From the NCBI RefSeq assembly GCF_015521605.1, contig NZ_WANV01000036.1:1-64000 (forward strand): DNA of 64,000 nucleotides, written 5' to 3'. Position 1 is the stretch's first letter, and each line of letters begins with the position of its first letter. The notes beneath the pieces were generated by a model that was given only the letters and a program-made list of their open reading frames with translations, was not told where the DNA came from and searched no databases. Origin of the DNA: Thermococcus sp. (GTDB lineage: Archaea; Methanobacteriota_B; Thermococci; Thermococcales; Thermococcaceae). A program made the position numbers and the translations under genes. Below are positions 60,472-63,081 of the stretch, piece after piece.

Positions 60472-60831
60472 TCATTTCCTGAGTCCGAGAGTCTTCTGGG
60501 CGAGGTAGGCCTTGAGGAACTCGACCCAGGCGGTGTAGTAGCCCTTCTCGTATTCGTCTCTGAACTCGTGTTCGAGTATTCCCTGGAAGTGCTCAAGGAG
60601 CTTCTCTGCCTTTTCCCGGTCGTGCTCGTTTATCAGCTGGACTATAAGCGCGTCGGTGTCGTTGTCCTTCAGGGCGCTCATGAATCCGTTTATGGCCTTT
60701 CCGTAGCCCCTGCCCCACTCGTCGGAGCCGGCCATCTTCTGGAGCTTCTCCAGGTGCGCCTTCGCCTTTGTGAAGTCCCTCCTCAGCAGAGCACGGAGGA
60801 ACATTTCCATCCTCATTTCTCTCGCTGGCAT
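60472..60831 (-). CDS. Conserved hypothetical helical protein, 119 residues
   Basis: A hydrophilic, mostly helical protein (MEMFLRALLRRDFTKAKAHLEKLQKMAGSDEWGRGYGKAINGF...), with two-helix repeats like a small helical-hairpin domain. No catalytic motif. GGTGGTGAG precedes ATG 60831 and a TATA-like AGGTTAAAAGC is about 35 bases upstream. It is the first gene of a probable operon with the uracil-DNA glycosylase; a repair link would be only a guess. Confidence 0.75.
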   Translation of the reverse strand: MPAREMRMEMFLRALLRRDFTKAKAHLEKLQKMAGSDEWGRGYGKAINGFMSALKDNDTDALIVQLINEHDREKAEKLLEHFQGILEHEFRDEYEKGYYTAWVEFLKAYLAQKTLGLRK

Positions 60832-60926: not shown

Positions 60927-60940
60927 AAAAGTTTTTATAC
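60927..60940 (+). promoter_or_regulatory. Predicted tes promoter
   Basis: AAAGTTTTTATACC is a strong TATA match about 55 bases upstream of the tes start, giving a leader of roughly 25 bases that ends in GAAGAGGTGAG. Confidence 0.6.
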
Positions 60941-60989
60941 CAGATGATTGGATAAATGACCAAAGGCGAAAGTTGAAGAGGTGAGTAGC

Positions 60990-62765
60990 ATGGCAGAGAG
61001 CGTTGGTGAAGTGCCCAGCGGTGAGAAAGAATTCGACCAGCTAACGAGGAGGATCAGGGACATAGTCGAGTTCCCGGAGATCAGCGAGGAGGAGTTCGAG
61101 GAGATGCTCAGGAAGGCCAGCAGGGCCTACGGTGCACCGCTGCCGCACAGAACGTATTCCCTCTGCCCGGAGACCAGAAGGGTTGTCCCCGCACTCGTCT
61201 GGGAGAAGGACGGCAAGGTATGGATAACGAAGCGCTGTCCGGAAGGTATGATAACCGATGTCTATTATGAGGACGTTGAGCAGTATTACAGGTTCCAGAA
61301 GTGGAAGTTCGATTTCAAGCTCATGAGCGCCAACGTTGACGCCTCGGGCGTCAACTGTCCCCTCGACTGCGGCCTCTGTGCGAGGCACCGCTCCCACACC
61401 AGCCTTCTCAACATCGTTCTCACCAACCGCTGCAACCTGAGCTGCTGGTACTGCTTCTTCTACGCCAAGGAGGGCCAGCCGATATACGAACCCACCCTCG
61501 AGCAGATACGCATGATGCTCCGCAACGCCAAGAAGGAGCATCCGATAGGTGCCAACGCCGTCCAGCTCACCGGAGGCGAGCCCACCCTCAGGGATGACCT
61601 CATAGAGGTAATCAGAATCGCCAAGGAGGAGGGCTACGACCACGTCCAGCTCAACACCGATGGAATAAAGCTCGCTTTCGAGCCGGAACTGGTCAAAGAG
61701 ATACGCAGGGCAGGGGTCAACGTACTGTACCTCAGCTACGATGGAATGAGCCCCCAGACCAACTGGAAGAACCACTGGGAGATTCCGCTCATCTTTGAGA
61801 ACGTCAGGAAGGCCAACGGGCCGGGCATAGTCCTCGTGCCGACCACCATAAGGAACGTCAACGACCACGAGCTCGGGGCAATAATAAACTTCGGCCTCAA
61901 CCACCTGGACATCGTCAGGGGCGTCAACTTCCAGCCGATTTCCCTCGTCGGAAGGGTCCCCAAGAAGGAGCGCCAGCGCTTCAGAATAACGATCCCCGGG
62001 GCCATAAAGCGCATAGAGGAGCAGACTCACGGTGCAATAGCCAGGGAGGACTGGTACCCGATCCCGATAGCCGGCCACATAGCCAAGTTCTTTGAGGCAT
62101 TTTCAGGAAGCAAGTACTACATGACCAGCCACTACGGCTGCGGCGCGGCGACCTACGTCTTCCTCGACAGGGAAAACAAGAGGGTCGTTCCGATAGGAAG
62201 GTTCCTCGACGTCGAGGGGTTTGTTGAGTACCTGGAGAGCAAGGCGGAGGAGATAGAGCACTGGAAGAGCATGGGCAGGCTCCACAAGCTCAAACTTGGT
62301 GCCGAGATATTCATGAAGTTCAAGAGCTTCTACGACGAGAAGTACGCCCCGGAGGGGCTCGGAGTCCTCGACCTCATAAAGAACGCCTTCGTTCACGGCA
62401 ACTACGACGCCCTTGGAAAGTTCCACATAAACTCCCTCTTCCTTGGAATGATGCACTTCATGGACGAGTACAACTACGACGTTGAGAGGGTTGAGCGCTG
62501 CGTCATCCACTACGCAATGCCGGACGGAAGGATAGTGCCCTTCTGTACCTTCAACGTGATCCCTGAGCTCTACAGGGACAAGGTTCAGGCCCAGTTCAGC
62601 TACACCTGGGAGGAGTGGAAGGCCATGCACCCAGACTGGGAGTACCAGAAGGACAAGTACATCAGGACGAAGGAGTTCGTTGAGCGGATGAAGAACAGCG
62701 AGCTCTACAGGAAGACCTACATCGACATCGAGGACTACCTTGGGGTCATGGAAAGCGGGAAGTGA
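60990..62765 (+). CDS. tes: Tetraether lipid synthase (radical SAM, Tes)
   Basis: Joins the phytanyl tails of archaeol lipids to form tetraether (GDGT) membranes. The 591-residue protein has the radical SAM cysteines in TNRCNLSCWYCFFYA (CxxxCxxC), preceded by an extra cysteine group (NCPLDCGLCARHR, about 122-134) for auxiliary clusters and followed by more cysteines in HYGCGAA, ERCVIHY and VPFCTF. This cysteine pattern and length fit the recently described Tes proteins. ATG 60990 follows GAGGTGAG; GTG 60981 lies in that site. It is followed after 10 bases by a small unknown gene. Confidence 0.92.
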   Translation: MAESVGEVPSGEKEFDQLTRRIRDIVEFPEISEEEFEEMLRKASRAYGAPLPHRTYSLCPETRRVVPALVWEKDGKVWITKRCPEGMITDVYYEDVEQYYRFQKWKFDFKLMSANVDASGVNCPLDCGLCARHRSHTSLLNIVLTNRCNLSCWYCFFYAKEGQPIYEPTLEQIRMMLRNAKKEHPIGANAVQLTGGEPTLRDDLIEVIRIAKEEGYDHVQLNTDGIKLAFEPELVKEIRRAGVNVLYLSYDGMSPQTNWKNHWEIPLIFENVRKANGPGIVLVPTTIRNVNDHELGAIINFGLNHLDIVRGVNFQPISLVGRVPKKERQRFRITIPGAIKRIEEQTHGAIAREDWYPIPIAGHIAKFFEAFSGSKYYMTSHYGCGAATYVFLDRENKRVVPIGRFLDVEGFVEYLESKAEEIEHWKSMGRLHKLKLGAEIFMKFKSFYDEKYAPEGLGVLDLIKNAFVHGNYDALGKFHINSLFLGMMHFMDEYNYDVERVERCVIHYAMPDGRIVPFCTFNVIPELYRDKVQAQFSYTWEEWKAMHPDWEYQKDKYIRTKEFVERMKNSELYRKTYIDIEDYLGVMESGK

Positions 62766-62775
62766 GGTGGTCGAA

Positions 62776-63081
62776 ATGAGCGTCAGTCCGGACAAGAGGC
62801 TCACGATGCTCAGCTTCAGGTTCGGGAACATAGACTGGGAGAAGGCCACGGCAAAGCAGTACGAGCTCCTGAAGGACGAGAGGATATGGAGGGCGTTCCT
62901 CAACGGATACTCCAAGAACGGCTTCGTGATATTCGACGAGGACGCACTTCCCAGGGAGGAGCTCCTGGAGGCCCTGAAAGAGCTGGAACCGGAAATAGTC
63001 GGAGAGGAGCGCATAGCGGTGAAGGAGCTCGTGGAATCCAGCTACTCATGGAACAACATCCTGGGGAGCATGGAATCATAA
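62776..63081 (+). CDS. Small unknown protein co-transcribed with tes
   Basis: A 101-residue soluble protein without signal or membrane segment (starting MSVSPDKRLTMLSFRFGNID; middle IWRAFLNGYSKNGFVIFDED; end YSWNNILGSMES). It starts 10 bases after the tes stop, with GAGGTGGTCGAA as its ribosome site, so it is translated from the same message. I do not recognise a family and there are no cysteines, which argues against an electron carrier. A binding partner or regulator of Tes is a possibility based on position only. Confidence 0.8.
   Translation: MSVSPDKRLTMLSFRFGNIDWEKATAKQYELLKDERIWRAFLNGYSKNGFVIFDEDALPREELLEALKELEPEIVGEERIAVKELVESSYSWNNILGSMES

Follow-up and report, generated by a model that had tools for sequence, protein, structure and literature searches.

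The window analysed here, a stretch of 64,000 nucleotides forming positions 1 to 64,000 of contig NZ_WANV01000036.1 from a Thermococcus sp., carries near its far end the gene for tetraether lipid synthase (tes), followed on the same strand by an ATG-initiated open reading frame of 101 codons that encodes a 101-aa protein of the Pfam family DUF3213 (Table 1). The genes of this region run in the order ligase, pantoate kinase, antiporter, uracil-DNA glycosylase, a hypothetical protein of 119 residues (hyp119), tes and DUF3213. The hyp119 gene (60472-60831, minus strand) is divergent from tes and adjoins the uracil-DNA glycosylase gene; its product has no family match above cut-off, and the gene is kept in 53 of 63 loci. 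The original prediction had drawn the small gene across 62766-63081, which is correct as to the presence of a real gene and not as to its beginning, since translation starts at 62776 and 62766 is the first base past the tes stop codon (TGA, 62763-62765). Its description of a start 10 bases past tes with a ribosome site of its own agrees with the 10-nt spacing between the tes stop and the DUF3213 start, and with a GAGGTG ribosome site that overlaps the stop within TGAGGTGGTC. This overlap makes translational coupling of the two genes likely.

Table 1. Features of the tes-DUF3213 locus, in window coordinates
Feature	Position	Strand	Evidence
AT-rich TATA-like element (about aaagtttttatacc) upstream of tes, likely sole promoter of the pair	60927..60940	+	putative, read from the sequence
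tes, tetraether lipid synthase, long Thermococci form, ATG start (GTG at 60981 an alternative)	60990..62765	+	NF045702, 694.5 bits; 7TOL, E=1.4e-134
Tes N-terminal extension (MAESVGEVPSGEKEF...)	60990..61130	+	motif PSGEKE; missing in M. jannaschii Tes and in the short Tes that occur without DUF3213
Tes C-terminal extension (KDKYxRTKEFVExMKxSELYRKTYIDIEDYx), candidate DUF3213 contact site	62634..62762	+	motif DKYxRxKEFxExMKxSExYxKTY
GAGGTG ribosome site overlapping the tes stop	62764..62769	+	sequence; TGAGGTG arrangement shared by many of 60 relatives
DUF3213 protein, small ferredoxin-like domain with conserved S-x-SWNN C-terminal tail	62776..63081	+	PF11491, E=3.4e-35; 2f40, phmmer E=2.8e-12; model pLDDT 87

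That this reading frame is a gene and more than chance is confirmed by its Pfam match, by residues that are invariant across 63 homologues, and by dN/dS values of 0.12-0.23 (NG86, against six relatives) that reflect purifying selection. The gene 3' of the pair is most often convergent, so that tes and DUF3213 normally form a two-gene operon. A sigma-70 promoter and terminator scan returned no match, sigma-70 being the wrong model for archaea.

The protein had been thought to belong to no recognizable family, a reading that we dropped because it matches DUF3213 (PF11491) with 120.6 bits over positions 3-85 of the 85-position model, against a curated Pfam cut-off of 27 bits, and has a relative in the PDB, P. 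furiosus PF1455 (2f40; profile E=1.4e-25). The family is listed as being of unknown function. No NCBIfam model matched the protein, and a match to CdiI_ImmP (E=0.0014, in 11 of 33 members) was set aside as lying under the curated cut-off of that model. Among the 63 aligned homologues Q28, Y29, R39 and S89 are invariant and A24, L31, F41, N43, Y45, F53, D54, S91 and W92 nearly so, and the S-x-SWNN tail is kept in 59 members. The protein is acidic (pI 4.64, net charge -7) and has no hydrophobic stretch. The original prediction was right that it lacks cysteines and a membrane helix: cysteine is absent from all 63 members, in which histidine is also hardly present, and the 19-residue hydropathy maximum is 0.29 for the window protein and 1.02 for the family.

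An AlphaFold model built from the 63 sequences (pLDDT 87, pTM 0.76) shows the ferredoxin-like alpha/beta fold of about 100 residues expected of DUF3213, with a beta-alpha-beta-beta-alpha-beta arrangement (strands 8-16, 37-43, 48-53 and 72-81, helices 21-33 and 60-66) followed by a C-terminal helix. The S-x-SWNN tail is unordered in this isolated model, and its conservation despite that disorder is as expected of a binding peptide. The top Foldseek matches in the PDB are mainly HMA, Atx1 and MerP domains (TM up to about 0.59/0.76), none of them at E<=0.001; the HMA domain of RAN1 is the second profile match (E=0.1) and HMA_2 matches one of 33 members (E=0.025), neither of which is significant. 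The common beta-alpha-beta-beta-alpha-beta fold is where this likeness ends, as DUF3213 carries an extra C-terminal helix and tail, and the CxxC metal site of the HMA metallochaperones is absent from the 63 members; identification of DUF3213 as a metal chaperone was dropped on this ground. A Foldseek search against viral structures gave nothing at E<=0.001.

The identity of the upstream neighbour as Tes is given by its NF045702 score, which stands against a cut-off of 450 bits, by a radical SAM domain (PF04055, E=3.9e-26) and by a homologue of known crystal structure (7TOL/7TOM). The gene comprises 591-594 codons; its GTG-start form has 594 residues, of which residues 51-551 are covered by the alignment with M. 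jannaschii Tes. The methanogen enzymes (Tes/GDGT-MAS; MJ0619/7TOL, Maeo_0574 and MA_1486) share family and core fold with the window Tes, whereas the M. jannaschii protein lacks both the N- and the C-terminal extension. Across genomes these extensions track DUF3213. The N-terminal motif occurs in 51 of 51 Tes sequences from DUF3213-bearing genomes and the C-terminal motif in 49 of 51, against none of 10 for either motif in the short Tes of genomes without DUF3213, those ten being the loci of the f3 genomes, which belong to the same class as the Thermococcales, and of G097. This correlation amounts to roughly one evolutionary event and is weak as statistics; it is compatible with the extensions being a putative docking site for DUF3213.

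A profile search for both families across 94 Thermococcales genomes confirmed the expectation that the small gene would follow tes in other Thermococcales. DUF3213 was found in 86 of the 94 genomes, all of which carry tes, usually as a single copy, and 86 of its 87 copies immediately follow tes in the same orientation, at a distance of 162-224 nt from the end of one profile to the start of the other; the 14 control genomes yielded no DUF3213. Where 60 loci were read base by base, the DUF3213 start mostly falls between -4 and +14 nt relative to the end of tes, with +10 a common value. The one unlinked copy (G057:C5) was rejected as a true exception, as it begins at a contig edge in a metagenome-assembled genome (MAG) with two copies. 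The eight Thermococcales genomes without DUF3213 show no real loss as far as can be seen, their tes loci being masked or unassembled. Apparent co-loss of both genes in the complete genome G024 is an artefact of a locus masked as N; in a second candidate, G062, the assembly breaks off ahead of the locus, in G085 the contig ends inside tes, and the remaining genomes are MAGs with completeness values of 53-82%. G024 agrees with T. kodakarensis KOD1 in the position of its ligase gene (TK2140 at 1,918,057; PMC8788744). The masking in G024:C1 (L169, L170) extends from about 1,920,001 to 1,950,000 or beyond, and absence calls within it are untrustworthy. Outside Thermococcales, the pair is present at a distance of 179 nt in one genome of another family (G095, family f2), and a further genome (G096) has both genes at contig ends, while the f3 genomes contain Tes and yielded no DUF3213. 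A scan of the genome contigs with one degenerate pattern placed DUF3213 in Thermococci only (19 loci). In Thermococcales, and in one family related to them, the two genes thus form a conserved, tight and exclusive pair that goes with the long form of Tes. This linkage was not found in the literature searched, and the word DUF3213 is in none of those papers.

The wider gene order provides a measure against which this linkage can be judged. Four neighbours were tested, namely the upstream hyp119, uracil-DNA glycosylase and antiporter genes and a downstream propeller gene, and these too are conserved around tes in Thermococcus (47-53 of 63 loci). All four are absent from the stretch read in G095 and in eight loci of the Pyrococcus type, where tes and DUF3213 are still paired. 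Retained in about nine loci that lack the four neighbours, the pair is thus held together more firmly than the genes around it.

The near-exceptionless linkage and the survival of the pair beyond its neighbourhood favour a role in partnership with Tes, and we consider DUF3213 to be, on balance, probably a dedicated, lineage-specific and non-catalytic partner of the long Thermococci-type Tes. The original prediction had offered a Tes partner, a lipid presenter or a regulator; the first of these is now the tentatively preferred role. In the mechanism that we propose, the two proteins would be made together, and DUF3213 would contact Tes through its conserved face and S-x-SWNN tail, probably at the Tes extensions, to tune catalysis and not to enable it. 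Such tuning might consist in stabilising Tes at high temperature, in holding it at the membrane, or in setting the diether-to-tetraether ratio. As cysteine is absent, DUF3213 can carry neither electrons nor metal by that residue. Small proteins co-encoded with a radical SAM enzyme have a precedent in PqqD, a winged-helix peptide binder and small RRE-type partner of such an enzyme; DUF3213 differs in its ferredoxin-like fold, and the substrate of Tes is a lipid. Against partnership stand the single event behind the extension correlation, the much faster divergence of DUF3213 than of Tes, and a fused AlphaFold model in which there is no sign of docking. For this model the Tes-DUF3213 chain of the in-frame locus L102 was used with the stop read as Gly and a shallow 60-row alignment (A5), and the result was judged by pLDDT and pTM only; the joined chain is a modelling device and does not imply read-through. 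Its Tes portion matches 7TOM/7TOL, and the tail is again unordered (pLDDT blocks 44 and 34, pTM 0.75).

Published experiments bear on how strictly Tes would depend on DUF3213. In M. maripaludis methanogen Tes by itself suffices for GDGT synthesis (PMC8941075), and GDGT is also made by E. coli when it carries a methanogen tes, mj0619 (PMC12042123); the methanogen enzyme is active in these hosts, which lack DUF3213. In T. kodakarensis TK2140 is the DNA ligase and TK2143 the uracil-DNA glycosylase (PMC8788744), and given the gene order of the window TK2145 should be tes and TK2146 should be DUF3213. A transposon mutant of this species, FFH22 (tk2145::Tn, the gene then being called a hypothetical protein), has its insertion at positions 518-526; its growth is almost normal at 85 °C and poor at 93 °C, and the coding region of tk2145 is by itself enough to complement it (PMC6393311). 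Of tes and its two neighbours, only tes, at 1.8 kb, is long enough to take an insertion at those positions, the other two measuring 360 and 306 nt; the thermosensitive FFH22 should accordingly be a tes mutant, if the gene-order assignment is right. Complementation by tk2145 only would then speak against a strict dependence on DUF3213 at 93 °C, provided that the insertion had also silenced the gene downstream.

The strongest competing explanation, which we regard as unlikely though deserving of weight, is that DUF3213 is merely co-transcribed with tes and serves an unrelated function in the cell. The fused model with no sign of docking, the conservation of much of the surrounding Thermococcus gene order and the tk2145-only complementation would all fit such an arrangement, but it does not readily account for a pair that persists where all other tested neighbours are lost, that recurs in another family, and in which DUF3213 never occurs without tes wherever the locus is assembled. 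Presentation of the lipid substrate, with DUF3213 binding archaeol headgroups or the membrane surface and feeding Tes, would suit the gene linkage and the conserved aromatic and polar residues (Y29, R39, F41, N43, Y45 and D54); it appears improbable for a small, compact, acidic domain that lacks both a hydrophobic stretch and a match to any lipid-binding family, and methanogen Tes needs no presenter (PMC8941075). Slightly less probable again is regulation of tes expression through its own message or promoter, for which co-encoding behind tes and the occurrence of ferredoxin-like folds in regulatory domains (Lrp-type and aspartokinase structures are among the weak Foldseek matches) can be cited, but the protein is acidic, has no DNA-binding domain and matches no regulator family. 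Delivery of metal or Fe-S to Tes, as the likeness to HMA metallochaperones might suggest, is very improbable for a family with neither cysteine nor CxxC and hardly any histidine, whose fold matches all have E>1e-3.

If DUF3213 is indeed a partner of Tes, the assignment would be the first functional one for a family that already has a solved structure. Thermococcales maintain diether as well as tetraether lipids and adjust their proportions. In this genetically tractable group, a gene that is conserved, separable and firmly tied to tes would offer a direct handle on how Tes activity is set. A bolder form of the partnership, which we put forward as a tentative possibility, is a two-protein Thermococci synthase in which long Tes and an obligate regulatory DUF3213 would set diether-to-tetraether joining with temperature, as opposed to the single-protein enzyme of methanogens; methanogen Tes acting alone and the tk2145-only complementation both argue against so strict a requirement. 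The gene-order identity of TK2145 with tes would also make the existing thermosensitive T. kodakarensis strain a candidate tes mutant.

Two variations in Tes itself were recorded in the course of the genome comparison. Most f3 genomes (G098-G107) and G097 have two Tes paralogues each, neither with DUF3213, the second being mostly lower-scoring at about 580-645 bits. In many Thermococcales Tes is split by an insertion of ~450 aa, an intein according to the model name of NF045703 (L092, L093, L107, L109, L113, L121, L125, L129, L131, L134 and L145), and the window Tes is of the uninterrupted kind.
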